A stretch of 34,546 nt of DNA, from the NCBI GenBank assembly GCA_937967805.1, contig CALBTC010000224.1:1-34546 (forward strand), written 5' to 3'. Every line of letters begins with the position of its first letter. Position 1 is the stretch's first letter. This DNA comes from an uncultured Anaerolineaceae bacterium (GTDB lineage Bacteria > Chloroflexota > Anaerolineae > Promineifilales > Promineifilaceae). The notes beneath the pieces were generated by a model. It was not told the origin of the DNA and ran no database searches. It worked only from the letters and a program-made list of their open reading frames with translations. Made by a program: the position numbers and the translations under genes. This document shows positions 7,606 through 34,546 of this stretch, in pieces.

Positions 7606-7609
7606 CTGG

Positions 7610-15103: not shown

Positions 15104-15106
15104 AAC

Positions 15107-15745
15107 TCAAAAACGTAGTTCCACGCCAGTTATGGCAATCTCATTTTGCTCACCGCTCACAATAATGTCGTATGTATCGGGCACCAACGAAGGGAAAGCG
15201 AATTTACCTAGATCATCGGTTGGGGCCATTTTCACCGTCTTTGAGTTGCTTTGCAGCTCCACCACATAAATTGTTTCATCTGCACCGTCTAGAGGAAAGA
15301 GTTGCCCGTTGACATGAACGCGCTTCTCCTGAGCATCCCATTGTAAATCGATGGCTATCTCGGCCAAGTCGGTGCTGTACACAAACTGTCGCTCTAATTT
15401 GGAGGCAGCAGGTGTGCGCACACCTGCCGCCGTAAGGTGCTGGTAGCTATCAAAGGTTAAGGTCGCCATCATCTGCTGAAAGAAGCCGGCGTGGGGTTCT
15501 GTCTTGGAGTGCCTTGTGAAGATGTTGTAAAGTGGCTCATCTAGACTTTCTGGAGGGGAGACCAGCACATAACTCTGGCTCAGGCGTTGAAACTCTTGTA
15601 ACCATTCAATTAACGTTCGTGTGCTGTCGTCGGTCATATCTAATTGACCTTCTAGCTCTTTGGCTTCTGCAGCTGATAAGCGACCCTCGACCCAATTTAA
15701 CAGATGTTCAAAATCGTGTTCATCTTTTTTCTTCATAACAGTCAT
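15107..15745 (-). CDS. Anti-sigma-like protein of unknown function
   Basis: This 212-residue protein is not matched to a named family with certainty. Residues 8-55 (EHLLNWVEGRLSAAEAKELE, then an acidic helix) resemble the helical start of cytosolic anti-sigma domains, but the HXXXCXXC zinc motif is absent. A middle linker follows (about 55-115). Residues 115-212 are rich in beta strands and resemble a carboxypeptidase-regulatory or SpaA-like fold (VNGQLFPLDGADE, GKFAFPSLVPDTYDIIV). There is no signal peptide and no transmembrane helix. It sits between the sigma factor (111 bases upstream) and the TPR-CHAT gene (three bases downstream). A role as sigma partner, CHAT substrate or both is inference. 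Confidence 0.75.
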   Translation of the reverse strand: MTVMKKKDEHDFEHLLNWVEGRLSAAEAKELEGQLDMTDDSTRTLIEWLQEFQRLSQSYVLVSPPESLDEPLYNIFTRHSKTEPHAGFFQQMMATLTFDSYQHLTAAGVRTPAASKLERQFVYSTDLAEIAIDLQWDAQEKRVHVNGQLFPLDGADETIYVVELQSNSKTVKMAPTDDLGKFAFPSLVPDTYDIIVSGEQNEIAITGVELRF

Positions 15746-15772
15746 CCCATTTCAATCCTTCTTGTACGAGTT

Positions 15773-15813
15773 CCTATAAAACTATTGCTGCAAATAGGCC
15801 AAAAAAGTACAGG
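15773..15813 (-). promoter_or_regulatory. Candidate promoter, motif shared with 5141-5180
   Basis: AAACTATTGC (15779-15788), a 10-base spacer and CCAAAAAAG (15799-15807) match the blocks in front of the S8 protease at 5013. Including the flank, TAT[A/T]AAACTATTGC matches 13 of 14 bases. On the minus strand the downstream block ends about 30 bases before the ATG of the 212-residue gene, a normal distance for a promoter. The nearest regulator is the sigma factor encoded just upstream. Confidence 0.5.
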
Positions 15814-15856
15814 CAGTTGGTCTAATTAGTACCTTATTCCCGGCGTGTTGGGGGTA

Positions 15857-16453
15857 TTACGGCCGTTTGCCCAAGATTTTTTTCAACCGTTTAAGACAAC
15901 GCGCTCGGATGGGACTAACGCTGCTCGTCGGCATATCCATTTTGGAGGCCACCTCTGCATAAGTTGGTTGTTCCGGACTGAAATAAAGTTGCAGCAAGAG
16001 TTTCTGGCACCTTTTGTCTAGCTGCGCAAATTTCCGGTCGAGCCATTCCAGCGTTTCCCAGCTTTCCATTGCTTCTTTGCTGGACAGATCGATCATGGCG
16101 GTCAGGCTTTGGCTAAGATCCTCGTCCTCCTTTGTGCTCTCCCGCCGGTATCGCGCCAATAACCGCCAGGAATGTCGTCGTGCCACAGTCGCCAGCCAGG
16201 GGGCCAGGTGTGTGCCTGTGTAAAATTGGTCCAGGCTCTCAAACATAATAGTGAACGTTATCTGGCCTATATCGGCCGCATCTTCTTGGGAAAGTCCATA
16301 ATTTAGTGGAATGGAAAAGACAAGCCGTTTGTATTTGTTTACTATCGCTTGCCAGGCACGAGCGTCGCCTCGGCGGCAAGCCTGGATAAGGTCATCGTCA
16401 GATTTGTCACTTATCTCTTTATTCGAAATTTTGCTACTATTTATTAAAGGCAT
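15857..16453 (-). CDS. RNA polymerase sigma factor, sigma-70/ECF type
   Basis: This protein of about 198 residues has region 2 (DDLIQACRRGDARAWQAIVN, then EDAADIGQITFTIMFESLDQ and WLATVARRHSWRLL) and region 4 (LDKRCQKLLLQLYF, PTYAEVASKMDMPTSSVSPI), joined by a short linker and without regions 1 or 3, as in ECF sigma factors. The helix-turn-helix of region 4 reads the -35 element. The start is uncertain: ATG at 16453 and TTG at 16492 are in frame and neither has a clear ribosome binding site. I use the ATG. It is followed by the anti-sigma-like and TPR-CHAT genes, so it is the presumed regulator of that group. Confidence 0.88.
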   Translation of the reverse strand: MPLINSSKISNKEISDKSDDDLIQACRRGDARAWQAIVNKYKRLVFSIPLNYGLSQEDAADIGQITFTIMFESLDQFYTGTHLAPWLATVARRHSWRLLARYRRESTKEDEDLSQSLTAMIDLSSKEAMESWETLEWLDRKFAQLDKRCQKLLLQLYFSPEQPTYAEVASKMDMPTSSVSPIRARCLKRLKKILGKRP

Positions 16454-16492
16454 AAGGTTAACACGATGACAAAATCCATCGATACCTACCAA

Positions 16493-18373: not shown

Positions 18374-19312
18374 TTATGTTGTATGTTGATTGTAATAGCC
18401 GTACCGCAGCCGCAAGGGCCACGTTAAAGCGGATACGGCCAGTTTTTGCCGCAGGTCCATGTTGGTGCGCCAGCGATTATCCAGGCGCAGCGTGACCGGC
18501 CCTTTTTGGAAGCGAACTTCATTACCGAAGACGGAGTGATTGGTTTGGTTAAGATCAACGACATGGCTGGCAAGTAACGGCAGCGCACGGCCGCTTTCGC
18601 CCACCATCTCCAGAATAGAGGCCAGCGACGCCTGCGGATTTTCTATGAAATCCTCGTAACGGAGCCGTAAAAATTGTTTTGCCTGCGGGCGCATGAAAAG
18701 TTCGGCCGTTAAATTTCTGGCGTTCCACTGCATGGCGCTGCTGATTGGCTTTTTACGGACCATATAGATGCCCGGTTGGAACTCTTTCTTTTTTGACCAT
18801 GAGTAGGCAACGGCGGGCGAGTCTCGCATGTAATGCAGCACATAAAGCTCAATTTCCGGGATAAAGCGGAGCAAATAACCGTAAGACGGGTTCTTGGAAG
18901 AATCGACAATGACGCGGCTGCCGGAGATGGCCTGGATGGCCTGGTACAGTTTGGTGAGCTCGTTGAGATACGGCCGTAATCTCTCTATCTCCTTTTTGCG
19001 CCAGCCGGGTAAATAGGTAAACGGCAAATGCGGAATGCGAAAGCTCTCCGTTAACCTGTACATTTCTTGCACATCGATAGCGTCTGGACCGCCATAGGCG
19101 GTTGTCAGCACCTGCCGCCAAAAGGCGCAATCATGAAACGGATTGCCGCAGCCGCACAAGTAGTTTTTTATCGCGCCCCGCAGCCAAATTTCGCGCAGTT
19201 CACCCAGGGCACAAAAGCCATCTATTTGGCCCAGAATATTGTGCAGAATGGTGCTGCCGCTGCGGCCGTTGCCCGCAATGAATAAAACCTTCACCTTTTC
19301 ATCGTTCATCAT
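18374..19312 (-). CDS. Sulfotransferase (PAPS-dependent)
   Basis: This protein of about 312 residues is likely to transfer sulfate from PAPS to a glycan. The 5'-phosphosulfate-binding loop FIAGNGRSGST is near residues 12-22. A CGCG...C..FW cysteine cluster common in this subgroup is near 53-66, VDSSKNP is near 136, and the 3'-phosphate-binding part RDSPAVAYSW near 163-172. No signal peptide is visible, so it should act in the cytosol. The frame opens at a TTG (19315), but ATG codons at 19312 and 19309 sit behind GAGG, so I use 19312. The leader (GAG-TTTG-ATGATG) is like that of the other sulfotransferase gene at 33329. It lies between FemXAB and FemAB-like genes. Confidence 0.85.
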   Translation of the reverse strand: MMNDEKVKVLFIAGNGRSGSTILHNILGQIDGFCALGELREIWLRGAIKNYLCGCGNPFHDCAFWRQVLTTAYGGPDAIDVQEMYRLTESFRIPHLPFTYLPGWRKKEIERLRPYLNELTKLYQAIQAISGSRVIVDSSKNPSYGYLLRFIPEIELYVLHYMRDSPAVAYSWSKKKEFQPGIYMVRKKPISSAMQWNARNLTAELFMRPQAKQFLRLRYEDFIENPQASLASILEMVGESGRALPLLASHVVDLNQTNHSVFGNEVRFQKGPVTLRLDNRWRTNMDLRQKLAVSALTWPLRLRYGYYNQHTT

Positions 19313-19321
19313 CAAACCTCA

Positions 19322-21697: not shown

Positions 21698-22900
21698 CTA
21701 ATCTACATTCTGTTGATCAATAAGCGCCACATAATTCGCCGCCACATTCTCCCAACTGTACTGCTCATTAAACCGGTCAGCGTTTTGGGACAACGCTTCA
21801 AGTCGGGCCTTGTCCTGGCCAAGTTCGAGAATGCAGCGCGTCAGGTCATCCACATCGTTTGGTGTGAAGAACTGCACCATCTGGTCATCAAAGTAGGTGG
21901 TGATGGTTGGCGTGCGGGCGGCAATGACCGGCGTGCCCACGGCGACGTACTCCATCAGCTTGGTTGGCAGCAGGCCATCGGTGAAGATGTTGCTGCGATT
22001 GGGCACAATGCCCACATCAGCTTTTTGCAGCAGCGACGGCAGTTCATTAGCGGGCAGCAGCGTGGGGCTGATTTCGACGTGCTCCGCCAGGTCGAGCTCT
22101 GCGGCAAGCTGCACCAGTTCATCCCGGTATTCGCCGCCGCCAAGCAGGGTGGCGTGTATGTTGGGTAGAGACGGCCGTACCCGTTCCACCGCCCGCAAAA
22201 TCAAATCAACCCCATACCGGTGAGCAAACGTGCCGTGGTAAATGAGGTGTAAGCCGTGGCCGTTTGTGGGGGGAGACGGCCGTTTCCCATTCCGCTTAAA
22301 AATGCGCGGGTCGGCCACGTTCATGACGACACTTACTTTTTCGGCGGGAACGCCACGCTCAATCAACGTCTGCCGCCAGCTTTCTGTCACCGTAATAACA
22401 TGGTCGGCAAACCAGCACGAGATCCGCTCCTGCCAGAAAACCAGCCGCACCGGCCAGCTTTGCATCCTGCTGTCGAACCTGGAGGCAAAAAATTCCGGCA
22501 TCAAATCATGCAAATCCAAAACCAACCGTGCGCCGGTCAGCTTGGGCACCAGCCCGGCAAAAACCAGAAAATCGGGCAAATTGTGAATCTGAACCGTGCC
22601 ATACTGCCGGCGCAGGTGCAAAACAGTCACCCGCACCGCCGCCAGAATCAAAAACGCCAAATATTCCAAAAGCTGCACCAACAGGCCAACCCCTTTGTGC
22701 CGCCGCACCGGCAGCCGGTAAATCTGCACGCCGTCTTCTACGGCCCTAGGGGCTTCACCCTGTTCTCGCAGACAAATCACGTCTACGGCATACCCGGCAT
22801 CGATCAGTGCCAGCGCCTCCCGCTGCACGCGCGTTTCGCCCACGGGGTAGTAGGCATGCACAATCATGCAGTGTCGTTTTTGCCTGTTTTTGGTACTCAT
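21698..22900 (-). CDS. Glycosyltransferase family 4-like
   Basis: This 400-residue GT-B glycosyltransferase has an N-terminal acceptor domain (MIVHAYYPVGETRVQREALA, VLDLHDLMPEFF) and a C-terminal nucleotide-sugar domain (HLIYHGTFAHRYGVDLILRA, ATLLGGGEY, then LPTKLMEYVAVGTPVIAA, with the E of the EX7E-type motif). It probably adds a sugar to the growing exopolysaccharide repeat unit on the cytosolic face. The frame is open to 22963, but those 21 extra codons translate an intergenic CACAGAG repeat. The ATG at 22900 has AAGGAGG six bases upstream and is the better start. Confidence 0.88.
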   Translation of the reverse strand: MSTKNRQKRHCMIVHAYYPVGETRVQREALALIDAGYAVDVICLREQGEAPRAVEDGVQIYRLPVRRHKGVGLLVQLLEYLAFLILAAVRVTVLHLRRQYGTVQIHNLPDFLVFAGLVPKLTGARLVLDLHDLMPEFFASRFDSRMQSWPVRLVFWQERISCWFADHVITVTESWRQTLIERGVPAEKVSVVMNVADPRIFKRNGKRPSPPTNGHGLHLIYHGTFAHRYGVDLILRAVERVRPSLPNIHATLLGGGEYRDELVQLAAELDLAEHVEISPTLLPANELPSLLQKADVGIVPNRSNIFTDGLLPTKLMEYVAVGTPVIAARTPTITTYFDDQMVQFFTPNDVDDLTRCILELGQDKARLEALSQNADRFNEQYSWENVAANYVALIDQQNVD

Positions 22901-22933
22901 AACCTGCCTCCTTAAAACAAAAAGCGGAACACA

Positions 22934-23012
22934 GAGCCGCACAGAGAAGTCACAGAGTGACACAGAGGAAAGGGAGTAAAATAATCTGCGAAATCTGCGA
23001 AATCTGTGGCTA
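22934..23012. repeat. Intergenic CACAGAG / AATCTGCG repeat, site 1
   Basis: The gap between two glycan genes contains repeated CACAGAG words (22937, 22947, 22960, 22971 region) followed by two direct AAATCTGCG copies and one AAATCTGTG. The same two-part build recurs at 24361-24430, 26764-26875 and 33349-33400. It also explains a false N-terminal extension of the glycosyltransferase gene. Confidence 0.6.
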
Positions 23013-23018
23013 TTTCTT

Positions 23019-24338
23019 TTACCAGCAGATGCCGTTGTACTGGCCGTTTAACCGGTCGGTATTCTCGCCAATTCGTATCAGGTCGATGACAATTTGCTCC
23101 GGCTGCACCTGGTCCAGCGCCTGCCGGAATTCGGGCGCGCCGTTGCCTATCACCACCACATCACAATCAGCCAGCACCTCCTCAATGGAATCGCACATCA
23201 GCGAGGCGATGTGGGGAATTTCTTTCTCGATGTAAGCGCGATTAGCCCCTTGCAGATTGGCCAGCGACACGTTCCGGTCGTAGACGCGCAGGTTGTACCC
23301 CTTGCCAATCAGCCGCTCCACCAGCTCCACCATCGGGCTTTCGCGCAGATCGTCGGTGCCCGCCTTGAAGCTGAAGCCCAGCACCCCAACCCGCTTTTGC
23401 CGGGTGCGCCGGATGAGCTGATATGCTTTGTCGATTTGCTGCCGGTTGCTGCGCAAAACGGAGTGCAGCACCGGCGGTTCCTGGTCTAGCTGGCGGGCAT
23501 GGTACAGCAGCGCCCGCAAATCCTTGGGCAGGCAGGAACCGCCAAAGGCAAAGCCAGGCTTCAAATAGTAGGGAGAAATGTTGAGCTTGGTGTCCTGGCA
23601 AAAAATATCCATCACCTGGTGGCTGTCGATGTTTTGCTGCTTGCAAATGTTGCCAATCTCGTTGGCAAAGGTGACCTTGAGCGCATGGAAGGCGTTGCAG
23701 GCGTATTTGACCATCTCGGCGACCTTGATAGGTACGGTAAGCAGCGGCGCATCGATCATAGTGTACAGGTCGCTGGCGGCGGCGGCAGCACGCTCGTCAT
23801 CGCTGCCAATCACGGTAAACGGCGGATCGTAAAAATCGTTGATGGAACTGCCCTCGCGCAAGAACTCCGGGTTGAAGCAGACGCCAAAGTCACGCCCGGC
23901 CTGTTTGCCCGACGCTGCTTCAAGTATGGGAATGACCAGATCTTCGGTGCTGCCGGGCAGCATGGTGCTGCGGGCGATAACGACGTGGTAGGCAGTTTTG
24001 TCCGCCAGCGCCGCGCCAATTTGCCGGCAAACGCGCTGCACGTAGCCCAGGTTCAGGCTGCCGTTGGGGTGACTCGGGGTACCCACGCAAATGATGGAGA
24101 GGTCGGTGTCGAAAACGGCCGTACGCCCATCCACCGTCGCGCAAATCTGCCCGGCCTCTACCCCTTTCTGCATCAATTCCGGCAAACCAGCCTCGATGAT
24201 AGGGCTGCGCCCCGCGTTGATCATCTCTACCTTTGTGGGATTCACGTCCACGCCGATGACCCGGTGCCCGTTATCTGCCAGCGTCGCGGCGGAAACCGCC
24301 CCGACGTAGCCTAAGCCAAAAATGCTGATGTTTGCCAT
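23019..24338 (-). CDS. AlgD-like nucleotide-sugar 6-dehydrogenase
   Basis: This 439-residue enzyme oxidises an NDP-hexose (GDP-mannose or UDP-glucose) to its uronic acid with two NAD+. It has an N-terminal Rossmann motif (IFGLGYVGAVSAATLADNGH), the central helix, and the catalytic cysteine in GGSCLPKDLRAL. A second Rossmann-like part (RVGVLGFSFKAGTDDLRESP) follows. The start, with SPIIEAGLPEL and FNPEFLREGSSINDFYDPP, is closer in my reading to GDP-mannose dehydrogenase AlgD than to UDP-glucose dehydrogenase, so the product may be GDP-mannuronate. AAAGGAG precedes the ATG by ten bases. It supplies the acidic sugar for this locus. Confidence 0.9.
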   Translation of the reverse strand: MANISIFGLGYVGAVSAATLADNGHRVIGVDVNPTKVEMINAGRSPIIEAGLPELMQKGVEAGQICATVDGRTAVFDTDLSIICVGTPSHPNGSLNLGYVQRVCRQIGAALADKTAYHVVIARSTMLPGSTEDLVIPILEAASGKQAGRDFGVCFNPEFLREGSSINDFYDPPFTVIGSDDERAAAAASDLYTMIDAPLLTVPIKVAEMVKYACNAFHALKVTFANEIGNICKQQNIDSHQVMDIFCQDTKLNISPYYLKPGFAFGGSCLPKDLRALLYHARQLDQEPPVLHSVLRSNRQQIDKAYQLIRRTRQKRVGVLGFSFKAGTDDLRESPMVELVERLIGKGYNLRVYDRNVSLANLQGANRAYIEKEIPHIASLMCDSIEEVLADCDVVVIGNGAPEFRQALDQVQPEQIVIDLIRIGENTDRLNGQYNGICW

Positions 24339-24472: not shown

Positions 24473-25495
24473 TTAGCTTAACGATTGTTGAATCAATTTT
24501 GTGAGCAGCGTGATTTTGTTGTGCCACTCTTGCTGCTGCTCGGCCTGTAGCTGCTTGATGCCGGTTTGGTAACGGCCGTATTCCTCCATCATCTCCTGTA
24601 CGCCCTGGCCAATGCCTGTCGTGGTGTTATCAACATGCACCGTGCCCTTGTTGAAGTAGGTGCGCAGCAGCGGCCAGTCCGAGGTGATGATCGGTTTGCC
24701 CAGCGACAGCGCCTCGCAGGCGCCACGCTGCATCGTGTGGTTGCGCGTCGTCAGGCACATCACCGCCTGACTGCCGTCCAGCATGGCGTAATATTCTTCG
24801 TTAGGCAGAAAGCCGGTGAAGTGAACGTTCGGCGGCACCGGGCCGGGGATGGGCTGATCGTCACTGCGCTTTTTGCCGGTGACGTAAAAATGCACCTCTT
24901 CCAGCCCGGCGGCGGCGGCCAGTACTTCGGCCAGCGGTTCGTCGGCGGCAAAGGTATTGACGACTACCACGTTAAAGTCGCCGTTGAAGGCATATGCTCC
25001 GGACTTAGGAAACGTGGTGGGAATGTCGCGCAGGACAAAGGCGTGGCCGCCCCAACGGTTAATTTGCGCCTGAAAATGCTCATTGGTAACGATGGTGGTC
25101 ACCGCCTGGCGGGCCAAAAAGCGGTACAGCCATTGCGGGCGCGTCCAGTACGGTGCCTGCATCGCGTCGCTGTGGGCGTCTACGACAAAACGGCCGTTCA
25201 TCACCAGGCAGTACAAATAGACAAAAAAGACGGCAAAGCTGGGCGGACTCTGCACAAACACGATCTTGGGCCGCTGCCGGAACAGCAGCCAGAGCGTTTT
25301 GATTGCCTGGTAACTGTATTTGTAGGGTGCCGCCAGCAGGCCGCGCCGCTTGGTGGCGTGGACAAAGTGCAGCGCGTCAATGCCCAGCTTGCGGGCAAAA
25401 ACCTGGCTGCGCGGGCCGTGGCTGGGCGGTCCCCAAACCAAAAATAGGGCCTGTTCGCTAAGGGGTGCAAATTGTTCAACTGTTTGAGCTAGCAT
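24473..25495 (-). CDS. Glycosyltransferase (GT-B fold)
   Basis: This 340-residue protein resembles family 4-like glycosyltransferases. The N-terminal domain has VWGPPSHGPRSQVFARKLG, PKIVFVQSPPSFAVFF and FVVDAHSDAMQ; the C-terminal domain has VHFYVTGKK, NVHFTGFLPNEEYYAML, then TMQRGACEALSLGKPIITSD, where the conserved Glu sits. It probably works in the cytosol on lipid-linked repeat units. It starts two bases after the stop of the upstream glycosyltransferase gene and has no clear ribosome binding site, so translation is likely coupled. Confidence 0.82.
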   Translation of the reverse strand: MLAQTVEQFAPLSEQALFLVWGPPSHGPRSQVFARKLGIDALHFVHATKRRGLLAAPYKYSYQAIKTLWLLFRQRPKIVFVQSPPSFAVFFVYLYCLVMNGRFVVDAHSDAMQAPYWTRPQWLYRFLARQAVTTIVTNEHFQAQINRWGGHAFVLRDIPTTFPKSGAYAFNGDFNVVVVNTFAADEPLAEVLAAAAGLEEVHFYVTGKKRSDDQPIPGPVPPNVHFTGFLPNEEYYAMLDGSQAVMCLTTRNHTMQRGACEALSLGKPIITSDWPLLRTYFNKGTVHVDNTTTGIGQGVQEMMEEYGRYQTGIKQLQAEQQQEWHNKITLLTKLIQQSLS

Positions 25496-25497: not shown

Positions 25498-26739
25498 TTA
25501 ATCCATAAATTGTGTCAGTAAACGTTCTACATTTTTCTCGACTGAAAATGATTCGATAACGGTTTGGCGGCCGCGTTGGCCTAGCTGGCGACGGCCGTTC
25601 CCATCCTCCAACAATTTTGCCAAAGCCTGGGCCAATGCCGTGTCATCGGCCGGCGGCACCAACAGGCCGTTCACGCCATCCGCAACCACCTCGGGAATGC
25701 CGGAGTGGCGCGTGGACACGACGGGCAGTTCCATGGCCATCGCCTCCAAAATCACGTTGGGGATACCGTCCCGGTCGCCATCCTGGCCAGTGACGCAGGG
25801 CAGCACGAAAATGTCCGCCTCTTTGTACTTGTTGATGACGTCCTGGTGCGGCAGCGCCCCGCATAGTTCCACCGTTTCACCCAAGCCAAGCTGCTGAATC
25901 TGGCGAGTGAGCGCCTGCCGGTCCGGCCCTTCGCCCACGATGCGACATTGAAAGTCGTATCCCTGGTCTTTCAAAAGGCGGCAGGCACGGAGCAGATGAG
26001 CAAACCCTTTCTTTTCTTTGAGCTGACCGACAGCGAGTAACAGTGGCGGTTTGAAGGCTCGTCTCTGCTCCGGCGGCTGGTATTGATCAATGTCTAAACC
26101 GTGATAAATGCAGTGCAGCTTCTTCCCCACACCGTTGCCGTTCAGGCTGGCCAGGTGCGTTTCGTTGTACCGGGTGCAGGTGGCCACAAATTTCGCTTCG
26201 GCCATTTTCTCCGGCAGCAAAACCGGATCGACGTAAATGTCGTTGGCGTGGGCGGTGACACTGTACGGCCGATTCAACAGGCGGCTCATGACGATGGCCG
26301 CCGTGGCCGCCCGGTCCACAAAGTGGGCATGGAGATGGTGCCCCGGCTGACGGCGCAGCAAAAAGGCGGCGTACACGCCGGTGCCAACGTGCAGGATCGT
26401 TTTAAGACGCGCCTTAAAGTCAGGATGCGGCCGGGTGAGCAGGTAGAAAAGGATGCGCCAGGTGGTGAACGACCGTAACACCCCAGCCCACAAAAAAGCA
26501 GCGACCAGTTTAACCGGCGAAACGGGCAGCAAATAAAGCACGTCCTTTGCCAGCGTCTCCTGCTCCGGCGAAAGCGGCCGTTTCGGACGACGGATCGACA
26601 CCACCTGCACCGGCACGCCCCGCTGCCGCAGCAGCCTGATCTCACGATCGATGAAGGTCGTCGTGAGCAGCGGATAGGTACCAATGAGGTAGGTCAGTTT
26701 GAAGTTGCGTGTGCTGCTTTTACCCAATTCTGCACGCAT
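25498..26739 (-). CDS. Glycosyltransferase family 4
   Basis: This 413-residue GT4 enzyme has TYLIGTYPLLTTTFIDREI at the start, HLHAHFVDRAATAAI and YSVTAHANDIYV in the acceptor domain, and the classical donor-domain signature: LLAVGQLKEKKGFAHLLRA, RIVGEGPDR, VELCGALPHQDV, then PNVILEAMAMELPVVSTRHS with both Glu residues of EX7E. These enzymes use an NDP-sugar with retention of configuration. ATG at 26739 follows AAAGGAG by ten bases; a TTG one codon earlier is also possible. It is coupled to the next glycosyltransferase gene, two bases downstream. Confidence 0.9.
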   Translation of the reverse strand: MRAELGKSSTRNFKLTYLIGTYPLLTTTFIDREIRLLRQRGVPVQVVSIRRPKRPLSPEQETLAKDVLYLLPVSPVKLVAAFLWAGVLRSFTTWRILFYLLTRPHPDFKARLKTILHVGTGVYAAFLLRRQPGHHLHAHFVDRAATAAIVMSRLLNRPYSVTAHANDIYVDPVLLPEKMAEAKFVATCTRYNETHLASLNGNGVGKKLHCIYHGLDIDQYQPPEQRRAFKPPLLLAVGQLKEKKGFAHLLRACRLLKDQGYDFQCRIVGEGPDRQALTRQIQQLGLGETVELCGALPHQDVINKYKEADIFVLPCVTGQDGDRDGIPNVILEAMAMELPVVSTRHSGIPEVVADGVNGLLVPPADDTALAQALAKLLEDGNGRRQLGQRGRQTVIESFSVEKNVERLLTQFMD

Positions 26740-26763
26740 CAATGTTGTACTCCTTTAGAAACA

Positions 26764-26875
26764 AACCGCGGAGAGCGTGGAGGGCGCAGAGTAAAGAAAG
26801 AGAATCTGCGTAATGGTTCGGCTGCGCTCAACATCGTTGAGCAGCTCACCGCCAGCCTGTGCAATCTGCGGATGA
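26764..26875. repeat. Intergenic CGCAGAG / AATCTGCG repeat, site 3
   Basis: CCGCGGAGAGCGTGGAGGGC then GCAGAG, a purine stretch and AATCTGCG fill 26766-26808, and CAATCTGCGGAT recurs at 26862-26873. The second part lies inside the 3' end of the beta-helix gene, so its last residues (SSADCT) are encoded by repeat sequence. A small hairpin (GCTCAAC, ATC, GTTGAGC at 26826-26842) stands between the parts. Confidence 0.5.
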
Positions 26876-28468
26876 TATATTTTCGGATGTTTCCTCCGTC
26901 TTGCTCACGGGCAAAGCGGCCTGGCTTGTGCCCGCACTGGCTGCCATTTTAAAAATCAGCGGCAGGTATTGGCGTTCGTCAAGGGTGATGGTGCCAAATT
27001 CAAAAGCCCCCATGTCGGCAACAACGCCGCGGTAGTTGCCGAGAATATCGTCTACTGGGGCAAAGGCGGGGTCTGCCTGGCCGATGGCGGGACTGGTGCT
27101 GGGGAGACGGCCGTATAAATCCACCAGCCGCTCAAACTCCTGCCGCACAGTGGTATTGCCACTGGTAAACTGCGTACCTTCCCAACGGGGTAAAATAACC
27201 CCCGACTGGTCCGTGTTTAGTTCAGGATCGGCTACCACGCGCCGGTCATCATCCGTTGGACTGATCGGATCGCCTGGTGGAATAGCGACACCCCCGTTCC
27301 AGTACAGGTTGTTGTCCAAGATCAGGTTATTGGTGATGCCGGCATCGCCACTGGCAAACTCATTGTCATCCCCGGAACTGCTGGCCCCCATCGTGCCTGT
27401 GGGGTCAGCCCAAATGTTGTTGTAAAAGGCGATGTTCTGGTTCAGCGGATTGGCCCCGGTGATGTTGATCCAGAGAGCATACGCTTCGGTTGGTAAATCG
27501 CCCACGATACTGTTGTTAGCAAAGGTCACATCCTTCGCCCCGCGCACGCCAAAGGCAGCGTTGGCCACGTTGTCAGAATTGCCGATCATTAGATTATTCA
27601 CCACCCACACCATTTCTGCCTCGTGGTACGATTTGCCATCATTGCCGATTTGCACAAATGTTTCTTCCTCACCTTCCCAATTGAGAAAAATGTTGCGCTG
27701 GATGGTGATTCGTTCGGCACCTTCCAGCCCATCGGCACCTTCGTTGCTGTCTTTCACGACGATGAAATGTTTGGTGTTGCTGTTATCAGTACGGCCGCTG
27801 CCGGCAAAGTCATTAAAAAAGATGTTGTCTTGAATGACAACGTCGGTGACGCTGTTCACATCCATATGCTGGTCCGAATCGCCCTGGTTATAAAAAATGT
27901 TATTTTCCACCGTCACAAACCGGGATCCATTATGGATTTTGAACAGATCGTTGTTGTAAGAATCGTGGAAAATGTTGTTACGGAAGGTTACATATTCTGA
28001 CCAGATGACATCATCACGGCGATCCATGATCACCACGTAATCCGTCGCACCAGGACCGGTATGGCGCAGCCGAAAGCCTTCAAAAATCATGTTGCGCACG
28101 CCGTCCAGTTCAATGACCAGCCCATTATTTTCCATAATGGCAAGATAAGGATTGGCTGCTTTAAAAGTCGTTGTCGTTGAAAATCGTCTTTCTAAACTGT
28201 TCCGGCCATTGTATGTGCCATCTTTGAACCAGACCGTGCAGTCGCTGTCCGGCACGTTTGCCGCGGCATATTCCATCGTGGCCCACGGTTCGTCAAAAGT
28301 GCCTGAATTGCCGTTGCTGCCATCGGGGGCAACCCAATATTCACACCCACCAGCGGGGGCAGCCGGTTGAATCCCATGTGTACCAGACCAAAAGACAAGG
28401 AGCAGCACCACCGCCAACAAGAGGCCCAGCCCGATGCTGTTATGCTTCGGTAAAAATTTGTTCACCAT
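26846..28468 (-). CDS. Secreted right-handed parallel beta-helix protein
   Basis: This 540-residue exported protein has a signal peptide or anchor (about 1-33), then YWVAPDGSNGNSGTFDEPWA, the usual opening of pectate-lyase-like and chondroitinase B-like beta-helix proteins. Repeating short strands (NMIFEGFRLRH, YVTFRNNIFH, FVTVENNIFYN, VVIQDNIFFN, ITIQRNIFLN, VTFANNSIVG, NIAFYNNIW) at about 22-residue steps build the helix. It may cleave or bind the polysaccharide made by this locus; no catalytic residues can be assigned. Near the C-terminus the motif YLPLIFK resembles a tail I associate with secreted Chloroflexota proteins. AGGAG precedes the ATG, and the gene start overlaps the end of the sulfurylase fusion gene by 29 bases. 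Confidence 0.83.
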   Translation of the reverse strand: MVNKFLPKHNSIGLGLLLAVVLLLVFWSGTHGIQPAAPAGGCEYWVAPDGSNGNSGTFDEPWATMEYAAANVPDSDCTVWFKDGTYNGRNSLERRFSTTTTFKAANPYLAIMENNGLVIELDGVRNMIFEGFRLRHTGPGATDYVVIMDRRDDVIWSEYVTFRNNIFHDSYNNDLFKIHNGSRFVTVENNIFYNQGDSDQHMDVNSVTDVVIQDNIFFNDFAGSGRTDNSNTKHFIVVKDSNEGADGLEGAERITIQRNIFLNWEGEEETFVQIGNDGKSYHEAEMVWVVNNLMIGNSDNVANAAFGVRGAKDVTFANNSIVGDLPTEAYALWINITGANPLNQNIAFYNNIWADPTGTMGASSSGDDNEFASGDAGITNNLILDNNLYWNGGVAIPPGDPISPTDDDRRVVADPELNTDQSGVILPRWEGTQFTSGNTTVRQEFERLVDLYGRLPSTSPAIGQADPAFAPVDDILGNYRGVVADMGAFEFGTITLDERQYLPLIFKMAASAGTSQAALPVSKTEETSENISSADCTGWR

Positions 28469-30701
28469 TCTTGACTGCTCCTAACAGAATATTGGCAATT
28501 TCGGGACGCATAAACCAGCCAGGTGGCTTTTGGCCACCCTGAATCATGCGCCTGGCTTCTGATCCGCTAATCGTTAACTTGTCATTGGCAACAGAGGCGT
28601 GGCTGCCATTCGGCATATGCACGTACTGTCGCTGCGACTGTGAGTAAAAAACTTCGCCAAATTTGACCGGCTTGATACCCAGTTCCGGGAATCGGTCAAA
28701 GATGCGATGGGACGCGTCAGGGGCGTAAAAGTTGCCCCCGCCGGTGTGATCGCGGCGTACCACAAAATGGCTGCACCCAAAATTTTGGCGACACAAGGCG
28801 GTAAACAGCGCCTCGCGCGGCCCGGCATAGCGGGAATAGGTGGAGAAGGTAGCAAACACGACGCGGTTGCGCGGATAAAAGCGTTCCAGCATTTTCTCGT
28901 AGCTTTGGATGATGTATGGCGGGTTAAAATCACCCGGCTTTTTCTGGCCGATGACCGGATGTACCAGCAGCCCATCGCAGTTTTCCTGTTCCATCGCCTG
29001 CATTTGAATGTATTCGTGGCCGCGATGGATGACGTTGCGTGTGTGGAAGCCCAGCACCCGTGACCAGCCGCGCTCGTCAAACAGGCGGCGCAGCTGTTTG
29101 GGCGTCAACTCGTACGCTTTGGTAGCCGAGTCGCGCCGCCGAATCAGGTCGATTTTGCCGCCCAGCAGAACGGGTTTCATTTGCCGGCTCAGGCGCACGC
29201 CGGGGTGGTCGCTGTTTGTGGTGCCGTAGAGGCTTACGGCCGTTTCCGCCGCATCAAATTCATACATCTCCTCCAAATACAGGAGGGCCATCACCTCACC
29301 CCGGTCATCAGTCAGTGCCACCGGGTTGCCAATGGTGAGCTTTGCGGCCGTCTCCCGGCTCACGTCCAGCACAATGGGGATGGGCCAGACGGTGCCGCTG
29401 GCCAGCCGCATTTCGGCCAAAACCGCATGAAAGTCTGCCTGACCCATAAACCCTTCCAGCGGGCTGTAAGTGCCAAAAGCAATCTGCTCCACCTCCATCT
29501 GCTTGTTCACGTCCAGCCCCACTTGAGGCATGGCCGCCAGCGCCGCTTCCTCCGGCGGCTGCTTGCACACCCGGCTCACCAGCCGGCCGCCATGCGGGGC
29601 AACTAGCGAAGATGAAATGTTGAAATCCAGCAGGTAATCCGACGCTTCCAGCGCTTTGATGAAGCCGTTTTGATGCCGTCTCAGCTGGTAGCCGTCCACC
29701 GTCAGCTCGGCGTGTTCGATCAGCTTGTTGAGCATGTTGATGCATTCCATGGGGTGTTTGCCGACGGCCGTTTCCGCCGAAAGCGTCAAGCCCACTGCCC
29801 CATCGACAATGGTGGTGATGACGTCATGCACTTCGGCGCGGGTGGGTTTGCGTTTTTCCACCATCGTTTCCAACAGGTTGGTGGCCACAAAAACGCCGGT
29901 GTCGTACCGTTTGGCCTTGTCGATGAGCACTTTTTGCGTGAACGGAATCTTCTCGATAGGAATCTCTTTGCTCAGGTCGCCACGGTCGATGAGGATGAAG
30001 TCTGACTTTTGAATGATTTCGTCGGCTTGCTCCAGGGCATCGACGCACTCAATTTTGGAGATGATTTTCATTTTGTTTTGGGCAGCGCGGCGGGCTTCAT
30101 CTACGGCCGTTCCTGACCGCACAAACGACACCGCCAGATACTCAATCCCCTCCTGCAAACCGAGGGCAATGGATTGAAAATCCTTTTCTGACAGGGCAGG
30201 CAAATCGAACCGCTTCTCCAGCACCGGATCAATCACCACCGCCTTGTTCTTGCCAATGTAGCCACCGGTGATCGCTTTGGTTGTCACTACTCCATCCGCT
30301 GCCTGGGACACATCGGTGACACGCAGGATAAGCGTGTCAAAATCTACGTGGATCAGATCCCCTTCTTCCAGTTGTTCAAACACCGACGGTGGTCGCAGGC
30401 ACAGCTCGCGCCTGTTACCCACGATTGGGTCTGCCCGCAAAATGATCTCGTCGTTCTCGTCAAACTGAATGACGTCCTGCTCTAAATCGCCGGTGCGCAC
30501 CTGCGATCCTTCGGTGTCGATGATGAAGGGGATGCCCACATTCTTTGCCATCTTGATGAAACGTTCCAGGTCTTGCAGGCTGGAGTGGGACATATTGATG
30601 CGCACAAAATCCACGCCTTTATCGGCAATTTTGCGCAGGTCGCCCTCCGTGGAGGTTGACGGTCCTAAGGTGGTGATGATTTTTACGGTTCGTTCGGTCA
30701 T
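28440..30701 (-). CDS. sat: Pyruvate kinase-ATP sulfurylase fusion protein
   Basis: This 753-residue fusion has a pyruvate kinase A/B-domain core at about 1-345, lacking the usual C-terminal allosteric domain. Key residues are R34, N36 and S38 (VRINMSH), D62-T63, K216 and E218 (ISKIE), D242 (RGDL), T274 and PTRAE. The loop DTKGPEIRT reads DTEGSQVRT here. Residues from about 365 to 750 are an ATP sulfurylase with its PUA-like domain, then FHTRNVIHRGH (551-562), YAGPREA (625-631) and RRDHTGGG (649-656). ATP sulfurylase makes APS and pyrophosphate from ATP and sulfate. The kinase half could regenerate ATP from phosphoenolpyruvate or act as a sensor. With two sulfotransferases nearby it probably feeds PAPS synthesis for glycan sulfation; no APS kinase is visible in the window. 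AAGGAG precedes the ATG. Confidence 0.9.
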   Translation of the reverse strand: MTERTVKIITTLGPSTSTEGDLRKIADKGVDFVRINMSHSSLQDLERFIKMAKNVGIPFIIDTEGSQVRTGDLEQDVIQFDENDEIILRADPIVGNRRELCLRPPSVFEQLEEGDLIHVDFDTLILRVTDVSQAADGVVTTKAITGGYIGKNKAVVIDPVLEKRFDLPALSEKDFQSIALGLQEGIEYLAVSFVRSGTAVDEARRAAQNKMKIISKIECVDALEQADEIIQKSDFILIDRGDLSKEIPIEKIPFTQKVLIDKAKRYDTGVFVATNLLETMVEKRKPTRAEVHDVITTIVDGAVGLTLSAETAVGKHPMECINMLNKLIEHAELTVDGYQLRRHQNGFIKALEASDYLLDFNISSSLVAPHGGRLVSRVCKQPPEEAALAAMPQVGLDVNKQMEVEQIAFGTYSPLEGFMGQADFHAVLAEMRLASGTVWPIPIVLDVSRETAAKLTIGNPVALTDDRGEVMALLYLEEMYEFDAAETAVSLYGTTNSDHPGVRLSRQMKPVLLGGKIDLIRRRDSATKAYELTPKQLRRLFDERGWSRVLGFHTRNVIHRGHEYIQMQAMEQENCDGLLVHPVIGQKKPGDFNPPYIIQSYEKMLERFYPRNRVVFATFSTYSRYAGPREALFTALCRQNFGCSHFVVRRDHTGGGNFYAPDASHRIFDRFPELGIKPVKFGEVFYSQSQRQYVHMPNGSHASVANDKLTISGSEARRMIQGGQKPPGWFMRPEIANILLGAVKNGEQIFTEA

Positions 30702-30724: not shown

Positions 30725-30780
30725 ACCCTAAGGGTTTGCACCTGGATCATTCAACTTTTGAGAAACCAAACCCTTAGGGT
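30725..30780. repeat. Perfect 14-base inverted repeat around the WD40 stop codon
   Basis: ACCCTAAGGGTTTG (30725-30738) and CAAACCCTTAGGGT (30767-30780) are exact reverse complements around a 28-base loop. Each arm is itself nearly palindromic (ACCCTAAGGGT). The right arm contains the TAA of the WD40 gene, and the left arm is 24 bases before the fusion gene start. No T-run follows, so it may be an attenuator, an mRNA-processing site or a repeat element rather than a plain terminator. Confidence 0.6.
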
Positions 30781-32300
30781 TCAACTTCCCAGATGCGGAC
30801 GGTGTTGTCGTCGGAACTGGTGGCCAGAAAGTAACTGTCACCTGACCAATCCACCCCGCGCACATAATCGGTATGTCCGACCAGCGTGCGCCACGGCTGC
30901 CCACTGCCGGCATCCCAAATGATTATTGTGAAGTCGTCCGATCCGGATGCCAGAAAACGGCCGTCCGCCGACCAGCTCACACCGCGCACCAAATCTGTGT
31001 GTCCGCGGAATGTAAACAACAGCTTGCCGTCGGCGGCATTCCAAACACGCACCGTCTTGTCCGCAGACCCAGAGGCCAGGAAACGACCGTCAGGCGACCA
31101 GTCCACGCTGCGCACAGCGGCCGTATGCCCTCTGAAGGTATGCACCAGCTTCCCAGCCGCATCCCAGATACGCACCGTGCCATCATTAGAAGCAGAGGCG
31201 ACGAAGCGGCCATCCGGTGACCAAACCACACTGCGCACCGCCGCGTTGTGCCCCTTGATCGTGTGCAACAACTCGCCGCTGGCCGCATCCCAAACCAGGA
31301 CGGGGCTGTTTTTGTCAAAAATGAAGAATTGACCCTCGTTGACACCGGCGGCCAGGAAACGGCCGTCCGGTGACCAACTCACGCTCGTGATAGGCTGGCC
31401 CGTGCCGGCCAGCGTGTGCATTAGCTCGCCGCTGGCCGCATCCCACAGGCGCACCGTGCCGTCGTCGGCGCTGGAGGCAATCTGGCGGCCATCGGGGGAC
31501 CAACGGCCGTCGGTCACGTCATCGGTATGGCCCACCAGCGTTTGCACCAGTTCCCCAGCGGCCGTCCAGATGCGCAGCCGGTCATCGCCCAGGCTGCCCA
31601 AAAGGAAACGGCCGTCTGGTGACCAGGCCACCGTGCGCACGTTTTCAAAATAATGCTGGCCGATTGTGTGCAGCAGTTGGCCATCGGCTATGGACCACAG
31701 GCGCACGGTGTCATCGTCGGCGGTGGTGGCCAACTGTTGGCCGTTCGGCGACCAGGCGAAGCTGGTGATTGTGTCCGAGTGGCCGGTTAAGGTTTGTTGA
31801 ATAATCCCTGTAGCTACGTCCTGAATGGCAATGGTCTGTTCATCTTCAGCAGTGGTGGCCAGTAAACGGCCGTCTGGCGACTGGCTCTCAACGGCTGGCA
31901 TCATCTGCTCTGACGTCACTTCCTCCGATTGCAAAAGCTGCTCTTTGGCGACATTCCAAACGTGCATCTGGCTGTCGGCCGTGAGGGAAGTTAGCTGTTG
32001 GCCATTGGCCGACCAGGTGATCTGGCTGACGGGAGCGGTATGACGCAGGAAGTGACCGTCATCCAGCGAGTCCAACGGGTACAGCCAGACACCAATGTTG
32101 GCGGCCACGGCCAGCGTCTGCCCATCTGGGGCAAAGGCAGCCCCCGTGGGCAGCCCGCGCCCAATAAGCATCGTTTCCGACTCACCCACTACTGCCGGTG
32201 GAAAAGGGATTGACAATGCCTGCGTTGGGGTACTGCTGGTGCTTGTAATGAGGATGAGGCCGAGAACGGCCGTTACCACCAGCCACCGAATGTTCAACAA
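30774..32300 (-). CDS. Secreted WD40-repeat protein
   Basis: This 508-residue protein has a signal peptide or N-terminal anchor (about 1-29), then about 11 WD40 blades. Each ends in a variant of VRIWDAASG and most carry SPDGRFLASGS. WD40 propellers are binding scaffolds; no enzymatic domain is present. One blade has an insertion (GQFFIFDKNSPVLVWD). The start is TTG at 32300, with AGGAG seven bases upstream; a downstream ATG (codon 44) would remove the export signal. Five ACGGCCGT motifs in this gene all encode D-G-R, four of them at the same point of a blade. It lies between a sulfotransferase gene and the sulfurylase fusion gene. Its partner is unknown. Confidence 0.87.
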   Translation of the reverse strand: MLNIRWLVVTAVLGLILITSTSSTPTQALSIPFPPAVVGESETMLIGRGLPTGAAFAPDGQTLAVAANIGVWLYPLDSLDDGHFLRHTAPVSQITWSANGQQLTSLTADSQMHVWNVAKEQLLQSEEVTSEQMMPAVESQSPDGRLLATTAEDEQTIAIQDVATGIIQQTLTGHSDTITSFAWSPNGQQLATTADDDTVRLWSIADGQLLHTIGQHYFENVRTVAWSPDGRFLLGSLGDDRLRIWTAAGELVQTLVGHTDDVTDGRWSPDGRQIASSADDGTVRLWDAASGELMHTLAGTGQPITSVSWSPDGRFLAAGVNEGQFFIFDKNSPVLVWDAASGELLHTIKGHNAAVRSVVWSPDGRFVASASNDGTVRIWDAAGKLVHTFRGHTAAVRSVDWSPDGRFLASGSADKTVRVWNAADGKLLFTFRGHTDLVRGVSWSADGRFLASGSDDFTIIIWDAGSGQPWRTLVGHTDYVRGVDWSGDSYFLATSSDDNTVRIWEVEP

Positions 32301-32315: not shown

Positions 32316-33329
32316 TCAGATTGGTTCAATCTCGGAGATTGAACCAATCTCATAGTAATCATCGACGATGCGATGTTCACGCAAGGGTCTGCCCTTTAGT
32401 TCGCTGATCTTGTCCCACACCAGCCAGCGGGCCATGCGCGCCAAACCCGGCGGCAGGGCTGCCAGATACGCCAGCCGATCCTTAACCGATAGGCGGGTCG
32501 GCTCCAGCTTGTAATCAAATTCAGCCATCGTCCGCCGGCAAAAGGTTTGGATGAAGGCAATCTCCCACGAGGAAATCACCTCGCGGAAGCGCCCAATCGA
32601 GCGCGTGGAGATGACGCCTGGCTGCACCTTGCCAAAGGCGGTGTTCGCTCCTTTTTTGTGGTAGCGTGGCGCGCCGGACATCGTCAGCATCTCCTCTGTG
32701 TACGGTTCGCCGATAAAGTCACACACCTGGCGCAGCGTTTCTGTTGGGTGTTGAGCCAGCGTCTCGTAGCGCACGATGAGGACGCGGTTGGGATAGCGCG
32801 CTGCCGCCTGCCGGGCAATGCGCGCCGAAGCCAGCCATTTCACCGTGTCTACGCCGATCCGGCGGCTGGTAGCATTCAGCCGCTTCAGCACCGAGGCGTA
32901 CCGGTCACGCGGGTCGCGAATGATGTGGACCAGCCTGGCCTGGGGAAATTCGCTAAAAATCTGGTCGGCATATTCTTCGTTATGCAGCGATTTGTCGCCC
33001 CAGCGCGTTTTGCCATCCCGTTCGGCGTGGTGTTGGTGGATGAGGGCGAAGAGACGGCCGTAACTGGCCTCACCTTCGCCAAACTCACGACGAATGCGTT
33101 CCGGGTCCGGCTTCAGGTTGACGATTCGTTTGTAGGAGAGCATTGCTTTCAGACAGCGTTCAAAGTTCTCCGGCCGGCTCAGATCGCCAAACTGTCCGTA
33201 AAAGTAGCGCCACATGTCGCTGCGGCGCACCATCGACAGGTTCGGGTGCGTGGCCAGCAGGGCATACATCAACGTGGTGCCGCTGCGATTGGTGCCGCTG
33301 ACAAAAACCGGTTTTGGTTCACTCATCAT
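32316..33329 (-). CDS. Sulfotransferase (PAPS-dependent)
   Basis: This protein of about 337 residues has the 5'-phosphosulfate loop FVSGTNRSGTTLM near residues 9-21, the catalytic-region TRWGDKSLHN near 110, and the 3'-phosphate-binding motif IIRDPRDRYASVLKR near 136-150. It is of a different subgroup from the sulfotransferase at 18374. It probably sulfates the glycan of this locus. The frame opens with TTG at 33332; ATG at 33329 and 33326 follow GGGAG and are better. The last 11 codons (from EIGSISEIEPI to the stop) lie within the palindrome at 32318-32350, so the C-terminus seems to have been rewritten by a repeat element. Confidence 0.87.
   Translation of the reverse strand: MMSEPKPVFVSGTNRSGTTLMYALLATHPNLSMVRRSDMWRYFYGQFGDLSRPENFERCLKAMLSYKRIVNLKPDPERIRREFGEGEASYGRLFALIHQHHAERDGKTRWGDKSLHNEEYADQIFSEFPQARLVHIIRDPRDRYASVLKRLNATSRRIGVDTVKWLASARIARQAAARYPNRVLIVRYETLAQHPTETLRQVCDFIGEPYTEEMLTMSGAPRYHKKGANTAFGKVQPGVISTRSIGRFREVISSWEIAFIQTFCRRTMAEFDYKLEPTRLSVKDRLAYLAALPPGLARMARWLVWDKISELKGRPLREHRIVDDYYEIGSISEIEPI
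32318..32350. repeat. Perfect 33-base palindrome at the end of a sulfotransferase gene
   Basis: AGATTGGTTCAATCTC (32318-32333) and GAGATTGAACCAATCT (32335-32350) are exact reverse complements around a single G. The stop codon of the sulfotransferase gene (32316-32318) touches its left end. A diverged relative with 22 of 29 matching bases is at 99-127. As RNA it could form a very stable hairpin just before the WD40 gene start. Confidence 0.75.
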
Positions 33330-33348
33330 CAAACTCCCTTAAAAAAAT

Positions 33349-33404: not shown

Positions 33405-34546
33405 TCATGGTTTTATTAAATCCCGGTACAGGTCGATGTATTGGTCAGCGACGGCGCTGAGGCTGTAGCGGCACTCAACGGTTTGGCGTGCCCGGCAGCC
33501 CAGCCGCTGGCGCAGGTTCGCGTTGGTCAGCAGGATGGCCAGGTTGTCGGCCAAAGAATCGGGATCATCGACCGTGAAGCGCAGGCCGTTTTGATTGTGG
33601 TCAATCACGTCCACATTGCCGGGAATGGACGATACAACCACCGGCAGGCCACAGCTCATCGCCTCCAGCAAGGCATTGGAAAGACCTTCGGCACGAGAGG
33701 GCAACACAAACAGATCGGCTTCTTGCAAATGGGCCAACACAGCGTCGGTTTGGCCATGAAACTGCACCTGGTCGGTGATGCCCAACTGTTCGGTTAGGGC
33801 CAGGAGTTCCGCTTTGAGCGGGCCGTCGCCCAGCAAATGCAGGCAAACGTCGTGGTGCTTGGCCAACCGGCGCATGGCGTGCAGCAGCGTGTCGATCCCT
33901 TTTTGTGGATGCAGCCGCCCGACAAAGATGAGACGGGCGGGTGTGTGCAGAGCATAGCTGGTTTTGGCGGGGATGGCGTCGGTTTCTACTCCGTTGGGCA
34001 GTTCGATAATGTGGGAATTGGGGATGTGAACGGCCGTTAACTCATCCACCACCTTTTCATTTAGCGCCACAAACCGGTCACATTTCAGTGCCGTGGGCAG
34101 CATGAAGCGGGCCAGCGCCAACTGCCGCTCTTCGCGCATCTTGTTGATGTCGCTGGCGTGGCCGCTGTTGGCCAGCTTGCTGATTACCTTTTTGTTTAGC
34201 AAGCGACCGGCGAGTACGGCCGTAAACGTATGGTAATTCAGGCCGTGCACGTGAATCACGTCATAATTAGCCCGCCGCCGCCACAAATGCCACAGCAGCG
34301 TGAGGATGTACAGGTAACCGCCAAATTTGCGCAGCCCCTTGATGCCCAGGAACTCCCACAAGGTGAAGTTGCGCTGCACCGGAATGCCGTCCAGCACTTC
34401 CTGGGCCGGCGAGCCGCGGAACCACCAGCCGGTGACCAGTTCTACCGCCACCTGCTTTTCCAGCAGCTTGCGCGCCAGTTTGTGCGCCTGTCGCTCGGTG
34501 CCGCCAATCCAGGGATAAAAAAGCCGGACTACCATCATCACCCGCG
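33405..34546 (-). CDS. Glycosyltransferase family 4 (partial at right edge)
   Basis: At least 380 residues of a GT4 enzyme: MVVRLFYPWIGGTERQAHKL at the N-terminus, YDVIHVHGLNYHTF, then RLIFVGRLHPQKGIDTLLHA, LHLLGDGPLK, VQFHGQTD, and PSRAEGLSNALLEAMSCGLP with the EX7E glutamates. The frame is open to the window edge. A GTG at 34541 and ATGs at 34538 and 34535 could start it, but the preceding Arg codon and the usual family opening (basic residues before MMVV) suggest that the true start lies outside the window. It is the most upstream glycan gene visible on this strand. Confidence 0.88.
   Translation of the reverse strand, partial: RVMMVVRLFYPWIGGTERQAHKLARKLLEKQVAVELVTGWWFRGSPAQEVLDGIPVQRNFTLWEFLGIKGLRKFGGYLYILTLLWHLWRRRANYDVIHVHGLNYHTFTAVLAGRLLNKKVISKLANSGHASDINKMREERQLALARFMLPTALKCDRFVALNEKVVDELTAVHIPNSHIIELPNGVETDAIPAKTSYALHTPARLIFVGRLHPQKGIDTLLHAMRRLAKHHDVCLHLLGDGPLKAELLALTEQLGITDQVQFHGQTDAVLAHLQEADLFVLPSRAEGLSNALLEAMSCGLPVVVSSIPGNVDVIDHNQNGLRFTVDDPDSLADNLAILLTNANLRQRLGCRARQTVECRYSLSAVADQYIDLYRDLIKP

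Follow-up and report, generated by a model that had tools for sequence, protein, structure and literature searches.

The window analyzed here, a 34,546-nucleotide contig (CALBTC010000224.1, GenBank assembly GCA_937967805.1) from an uncultured Anaerolineaceae bacterium, encodes on its minus strand (28440..30701) a 753-residue protein that joins a pyruvate kinase-like (PK-like) half to an ATP sulfurylase (Sat) half. This fusion is a real and conserved enzyme architecture, undescribed as far as full-text searches of the open PubMed Central (PMC) library reach (subscription papers lie outside that scope); the first-pass annotation likewise knew of no characterized fusion of this kind. On sequence grounds, the best reading is a phosphoenolpyruvate (PEP)-driven helper domain for a donor pathway of the 3'-phosphoadenosine 5'-phosphosulfate (PAPS) type, with remodelled pockets. 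In its fuller form, to which we give about an even chance, the fusion would serve as a station in the supply of a 3'-phosphoadenylyl donor, most likely PAPS, for sulfotransferases acting on surface glycans, and the PK-like half would use PEP to recycle the ADP of adenosine 5'-phosphosulfate (APS) kinase.

The open reading frame (ORF) starts with ATG and contains no internal stops. Pfam places a pyruvate kinase barrel with its B domain at residues 4-321 (29739..30692; E 1.6e-67), the PUA_2 domain of ATP sulfurylase (PF14306) at residues 368-521 (29139..29600), and the ATP-sulfurylase catalytic domain (PF01747) at residues 529-740 (28482..29117; E 1.8e-73), all on the minus strand and far over the cut-offs. 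The catalytic domain is an HTRN variant distinguished by H553, S623, T634 and T653. Between the Pfam domains, a linker of residues 322-367 (29601..29738, minus strand) occupies the place of the pyruvate kinase C-terminal domain, which is absent, as is an APS kinase domain; predicted local structural confidence (pLDDT) is low at residues 362-373. The PK-like half scores 228 bits against the PF00224 cut-off of 30, and TIGR01064 gives 283.6 bits, below its equivalog cut-off of 306.4, with a match that stops at residue 342. ORF and domain analysis thus bear out the initial description of a pyruvate kinase core without its C-terminal domain joined to an ATP sulfurylase.

A database search with the fusion returned 2403 matches, of which 120 were listed, the query itself among them; all 119 listed relatives carry the three-domain layout, at 65-86% identity and 96-100% query cover. 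Where members are named among the listed matches, they are called 'pyruvate kinase', 'ATP sulfurylase' or 'sulfate adenylyltransferase'. The locus of a marine Anaerolineaceae metagenome-assembled genome (L003) is largely syntenic with the window, encodes a fusion copy 94% identical to that of the window, and aligns with positions 17.3-34.5 kb at 80-89% identity, apart from a gap at ~18.3-20.5 kb. Between the two copies, the ratio of nonsynonymous to synonymous substitution rates (dN/dS) is 0.052 for the PK-like half, 0.077 for the Sat half and 0.038 for a 24-codon linker. A sequencing or assembly artefact, which had been named as an outcome that would overturn the proposal, is rejected on the strength of the 119 listed relatives, the L003 copy and the low dN/dS. 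No match was found for a plasmid copy of the window gene, and 24 pattern matches to viral relatives yielded none that was confirmed.

To compare residues and neighborhoods, the best 80 of 172 confirmed relatives were kept, giving 78 genome loci. Nine of these, in which no fusion frame reaches 680 aa (L025, L028, L036, L050, L056, L060, L073, L075 and L077), were dropped from the counts, leaving 69 relatives whose best-segment identity to the window protein is 36-94%; four row pairs are more than 90% alike, and gaps were set aside in residue counts. Searches of host genomes took 50 of the 78 loci, and neighboring ORFs were defined simply as the longest frames.

All eight kinase residues singled out in the first-pass annotation (R34, N36, S38, D62, K216, E218, D242 and T274) are present in the window fusion, and the site is preserved in almost every one of the 69 relatives. 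K216, E218, R240 and D242 are conserved in 69/69, R34, N36, S38 and H39 in 67/67, and D62, R69 and K153 in 68/68; position 274 is Thr in 63/69 and Ser in 6/69. Judged by these residues, the PK-like half appears to be a functional phosphotransferase, and one of a new subtype, since the clade also has a signature of its own. Asp replaces Ala before the RGD motif (D239) in 69/69 members versus 0/20 canonical rows (Ala in 20/20), Asn replaces Gln/His after the catalytic Thr (N275) in 69/69, and Ser/Ala replaces the canonical Pro at another fixed place. At position 117 (rabbit numbering, assigned by motif) the clade has Gln (Q67) in 68/68 members instead of the Glu117 or Lys117 of the pyruvate kinase signature, compared with Lys in 16, Arg in 3 and Ala in 1 of the 20 canonical rows. 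Positions 113/114/117/120 track potassium dependence according to PMC8835810 and PMC4284704, and the usual T/E/Q/T of the clade corresponds to the signature of neither K+-dependent nor K+-independent enzymes; PMC4374775 describes other residues at position 117 in Archaea. In a quick-search tree of 69 rows, comprising the PK-like halves of 42/69 loci, the window copy, solo forms and 14 of the 20 canonical host pyruvate kinases, the PK-like halves split from those 14 with a Shimodaira-Hasegawa-like approximate likelihood ratio test (SH-aLRT) value of 100.

The Sat half of the window fusion possesses R555, N556, H559 and H562, which form the HxxH motif and the Arg-Asn of the nucleotide/pyrophosphate (PPi) loop; in the relatives, R555, H559 and H562 are present in 69/69 and N556 in 68/69. 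The canonical sulfate-contact residues, the Gln of QxRN and the Ala of GRDHA, are not kept. According to passages of PMC3779200, this Gln side chain and the main-chain NH of this Ala bind the sulfate of APS, at a site virtually identical among ATP sulfurylases. Two further clade-wide changes, M623S (64/69) and H634T (69/69), were found relative to 23 canonical rows, a set in which L116/L121, L117/L123 and L118/L122 are repeat pairs. The relatives that depart from A653T are too few to be related to the type of APS kinase. In two Desulfuromonadales loci (L045 and L078), the Arg of the sulfate loop in Sat has become Trp (GWDH) and the PK-like half is intact. The window copy has two private changes within the GRDHTGVG loop, G649R (CGC versus GGC in L003) and V655G (GGG versus GTA), at positions that are Gly in 69/69 and Val in 63/69 relatives, respectively; these may be errors or genuine changes, and the window enzyme may accordingly be misread or impaired. 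Neither these two changes nor the clade-specific substitutions of both active sites appear in the first-pass annotation.

The neighborhood ties the fusion to APS kinases and sulfotransferases. Among the 133 genes directly adjoining it in the 69 loci, APS_kinase is the commonest Pfam family (34), followed by Sulfotransfer_1 (19) and Sulfotransfer_3 (15), although one gene may match both of the latter. An APS kinase is fused to the fusion protein or lies within two genes of it in 53/69 loci, and four-domain proteins of the order PK, PUA, Sat and APS kinase (APSK) were recognized in 13/69 relatives by hidden Markov model (HMM); six of them were checked with Pfam, one of the six being cut by a contig end. 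An APS kinase was matched in each of the 50 host genomes, although G012 gave a weak match only; in 40/50 an APS kinase is either part of the same protein or at most 5 kb distant, where random placement expects 0.43 hits. A PF00685 (Sulfotransfer_1) hit lies within 5 kb in 34/50, against an expectation of 0.44. These distances, measured from the PK match, cover 61 of 78 APS-kinase rows (17 weak ones excluded) and all 68 sulfotransferase rows, with fused APS kinases counted as near. Because glycan genes cluster, random placement makes for a weak null.

By gene order, a sulfotransferase lies at most two genes from the fusion in 44/69 loci, the HMM matches being only partly checked by Pfam. The link to sulfotransferases anticipated in the first-pass annotation was therefore recovered and is strong, and the finding that would have refuted the proposal, dead kinase sites in all relatives together with the lack of such a link, was not what the relatives gave. 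In the window, both predicted sulfotransferase genes were confirmed, on the minus strand: one at 32316..33332 (PF13469, PF00685), two genes away from the fusion like its L003 homologue and within the part that aligns with L003, and a second at 18374..19315 (PF13469), which falls inside the alignment gap. CysQ-like genes occur in 12/69 loci, recounted by HMM because ORF cluster 9 mixed them with sulfotransferases. FemAB-like genes occur in only 2/69, and FemXAB was rejected as a conserved member of the module. Of 38 listed multi-transmembrane neighbors, the part that was scanned contains one TauE protein (L077).

A four-step scheme would accommodate these associations. The Sat half would adenylylate sulfate to give APS and PPi; an APS kinase, encoded outside this window, would convert APS to PAPS and ADP; the PK-like half would move the phosphate of PEP onto ADP, regenerating ATP and relieving the dead-end enzyme-ADP-APS complex; and nearby sulfotransferases would spend the donor. 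The original proposal that local ATP regeneration pulls the sulfurylase step directly is rejected on chemistry: ATP sulfurylase releases PPi, not ADP, so the PK-like half would act one step later, on the ADP of APS kinase. The idea of ATP regeneration from PEP is thus kept with a different ADP source, APS kinase, which is the commonest companion of the PK-like half even without Sat; on the whole, the earlier interpretation is partly supported. Passages of PMC9885120 describe APS kinase as trapped by ADP in a dead-end enzyme-ADP-APS complex and report that human PAPSS1 in vitro made practically no PAPS and let ADP build up unless PK/PEP was added, which yielded much more. Coupling with PK and lactate dehydrogenase is used in assays of ATP sulfurylase and APS kinase (PMC10322725).

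Genes in which the PK-like half accompanies APS kinase without Sat extend this association. In P0168 and P0169 the PK-like domain is fused directly to APS kinase, and G152, G887 and G888 each have a tight two-gene operon of an APS kinase and a PK-like gene that stands alone, with differing flanks in G887. At L077, the PK-like gene stops at the linker; it is flanked by a TauE transporter and by a sulfotransferase-like gene (scoring under the Pfam cut-off) and lies two genes from an APS kinase. Solo PK-like forms fall among the fusions in the tree, which suggests that the PK-like half outlasts Sat, and Sat was probably lost while the PK-like half stayed. The PK-like half is also intact where Sat decays (P0197, L045 and L078); Sat without PK occurs as well (L073 and P0258). 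Near the fusions of L002 and L063 lie Sat-APSK proteins (L002:2828-4519 and L063:7364-8965) whose Sat part has neither HxxH nor GRDH and whose APSK part is canonical and Arg-bearing, as though APS supply there had passed to the fusion. G034 has a CysD over the cut-off and a canonical APS kinase in addition to the fusion. The APS kinase of L077, at L077:2789-3547 next to the TauE transporter, is fused to a PF01467 cytidylyltransferase-like domain, a possible stand-in for ATP sulfurylase.

Relatives among the 78 loci were found in NC10, Anaerolineae, many lineages of the Candidate Phyla Radiation (CPR), Woesearchaeota and other DPANN, Omnitrophota, Elusimicrobia, Deltaproteobacteria, Nitrospina, Alphaproteobacteria, Planctomycetes, Verrucomicrobia and Bacteroidetes. 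The gene was detected in 1/286 genomes of the phylum of G008 and in 2/301 of the phylum of G002, all of them already known holders, and the Sat half alone matches in 59/301 of the latter; in a class of 240 genomes, the PK-like variant is present in four, three fused and one solo. The clade is thus rare and spread over many phyla. Neighbors in the tree are often of different phyla, and the gene looks as though it moves together with glycan loci.

Several observations weigh against PAPS supply with PEP as the phosphate source. At the sulfate contacts of the Sat half, Q553H is present in 69/69 and A653T in 62/69 fusions, at positions that are Gln and Ala in 23/23 canonical rows each. The second sulfate-binding Arg of APS kinase, corresponding to CysC Arg497, which contacts the APS sulfate and adenine N1 according to a passage of PMC4373884, is Ile, Val or Leu in 50/55 partner kinases and Arg in five, compared with Arg in 12/12 canonical rows (a column matched by distance from a conserved Phe, in a canonical set where L114 equals L001). 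All 55 retain the other sulfate-binding Arg. D239, Q67 and N275 are absent from the 20 canonical pyruvate kinase rows, so PEP may not be the donor of the PK-like half. Sixteen of the 69 loci have no APS kinase within two genes and 19 no sulfotransferase in the examined stretch, although several stretches are short; sulfate transporters and pyrophosphatases, considered as constant neighbors, were rejected because they fall outside the 25 commonest adjoining families (rarer families are unlisted). No APS kinase was found by HMM over the 25 called ORFs of the window, and G002, the genome of the 94% relative, has none within 10 kb of its fusion; its APS-kinase matches elsewhere comprise two canonical genes, a weak hit and an APSK-like gene from another subfamily. 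Neither Sat nor CysD matches were found in G152, G887 and G888, and the solo forms could be explained by repeated fusion instead of loss of Sat.

These changes at the sulfate contacts lend themselves to a different account, in which the remodelled Sat adenylylates an oxyanion other than sulfate, the 3' position is phosphorylated by the Ile-type APS kinase, enzymes of the sulfotransferase fold transfer the group to glycans, and the PK-like half serves either to recycle ADP or to produce the activated small acid. We regard a PAPS-like donor of a non-sulfate group as a tentative alternative, on the unlikely side. Its appeal lies in the coordination of clade-wide substitutions across two enzymes (Q553H, M623S, H634T and A653T in Sat; Arg to Ile/Val/Leu, Ile to Asn and Thr to Ile in the partner APS kinases), and in the APS kinases elsewhere in the hosts, which keep the Arg in 14/14 cases. 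Those 14 are script-motif finds among 17 stretches, eight of them repeat rows of the 55- and 12-row comparison and two divergent (G015 1178k and G049 C108); L176 and L177, two of the other three stretches, were read separately. The PK+APSK operons of G152, G887 and G888, where neither Sat nor CysD was matched, and the CysD and canonical APS kinase that G034 holds besides its fusion, point the same way. Yet the neighboring transferases match sulfotransferase families, the fusions of L002 and L063 are paired with an Arg-keeping APS kinase, and PK-like genes are paired with Arg-type APS kinases in L054, L057, L058, L068 and L077. Moreover, the CysQ-like genes suit any 3'-phosphoadenylyl donor, a substitution by itself is no proof of a new substrate, and the three Sat-less genomes may be incomplete. 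On balance, we judge sulfate more likely than not to be the transferred oxyanion. A precedent for a donor of another kind comes from Campylobacter, where the phosphoramidate capsule pathway includes an APS-kinase homologue that acts on a CDP-amidate. The more specific claim of a new donor pathway, in which the PK-like, HTRN-sulfurylase and Ile-type APS-kinase set would make a PEP-powered non-sulfate PAPS analogue for surface glycans in CPR, DPANN, Omnitrophota, Anaerolineae and others, seems to us unlikely.

The two remaining accounts concern the PK-like half itself. It might be regulatory or structural, sensing PEP as a sign of energy state and switching or oligomerizing ATP sulfurylase without phosphotransfer; the active-site swaps specific to the clade and the missing C-terminal domain would suit such a role, and fungal ATP sulfurylases offer a parallel in their APS-kinase-like regulatory domain. 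The catalytic Lys, Glu, Asp and Arg, though, are kept throughout the 69 relatives, which also makes PEP sensing alone, the option offered in the first-pass annotation, less likely, and the PK-like half is found without Sat (solo or fused to APSK) and beside decayed Sat (P0197, L045 and L078). We therefore consider a regulatory role quite improbable. Very improbable, in turn, is a glycolytic pyruvate kinase joined to a sulfurylase by chance and without coupling. In 30/50 host genomes, many of them below 1.5 Mb, no other pyruvate kinase was found beyond fragments, which speaks for it, but 20/50 have a separate canonical-type enzyme (two of the 20 shorter than 400 aa). The clade also stands apart from the 14 canonical pyruvate kinases with its own signature, its adjoining genes are foremost APS kinases and sulfotransferases, and it is rare within phyla.

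PAPS supply with ADP recycling by the PK-like half can be set beside several known systems. Bifunctional PAPS synthases (e.g. NF004040, human PAPSS1 and Aquifex 2gks) share Sat with PUA_2, HxxH and SGxxxR, and the 13 four-domain relatives resemble them further in their C-terminal APS kinase. The fusion differs in its N-terminal PK-like domain, in HTRN instead of QTRN and in three more Sat changes, and the window copy has no APSK. With pyruvate kinases (PF00224; E. coli PykF and rabbit M1) it shares the barrel, the B domain, the catalytic Arg/Lys/Glu/Asp/Thr and nucleotide-site residues; it differs in the absent C-terminal domain, the T/E/Q/T set, the Asp before RGD and the Asn after the catalytic Thr. 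Proteins of some algae fuse a pyrophosphatase, ATP sulfurylase and APS kinase, likewise attaching to ATP sulfurylase a helper enzyme that drives sulfate activation; the algal helper removes PPi, whereas the PK-like helper would recharge ADP. Tied as it is to APS kinase, the PK-like half would be the natural counterpart of the laboratory PAPS cascade with PK/PEP. The chemistry proposed for the fusion is the same, PEP recharging the ADP of APS kinase and easing its inhibition (passages of PMC9885120), but that cascade is a man-made mix of separate enzymes, whereas here the parts lie in one protein or operon.

If the PK-like half does recharge ADP, the fusion would be a natural one-protein or one-operon form of the ATP-regeneration trick that biochemists add for PAPS, could account for the ability of small-genome cells such as CPR and DPANN to bear the cost of sulfated surfaces, and would give sulfation chemistry a catalyst in one piece. 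Were the acceptor not sulfate, a new kind of glycan decoration would be at hand. Either way, current database names mislead metabolic reconstructions of uncultured phyla.

Around the fusion, the minus strand of the window encodes a UDP-glucose/nucleotide-sugar dehydrogenase (23019..24338; TIGR03026 above cut-off), three GT4 glycosyltransferases recognized by domain match (21698..22963, 25498..26742 and 33405..34541) and a glycosyltransferase-like protein with weak matches (24473..25495). A 508-aa WD40-repeat-rich protein (30774-32300) lies between the fusion and the nearer sulfotransferase, with an L003 homologue in the same place. On the other side, a 540-aa protein without a Pfam match (26846-28468) has a called start lying 29 bases inside the end of the fusion, an overlap repeated in its L003 homologue.

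An APS-kinase-like subfamily with LxSDxxR in place of DGDxxR occurs beside phosphotransferase-like frames at L176:6353-6907 (G002, Chloroflexota) and L177:761-1309 (G001, NC10); the APSK-like genes at G002 C130 and G001 C3:88k were considered as the missing partner and rejected, since their motifs assign them to a different subfamily. Farther away in the window lie a 1054-aa LTD/endonuclease-phosphatase/Ig-domain protein adjoining a subtilase (179-5013), an iron-chelate uptake set of two FecCD permeases, an ABC ATPase, a FhuF-like protein and a periplasmic binding protein (5507-10637), a second subtilase (10752-12098), and a 962-aa TPR-CHAT protein beside a 212-aa gene and a sigma-70-like factor (12215-16492).

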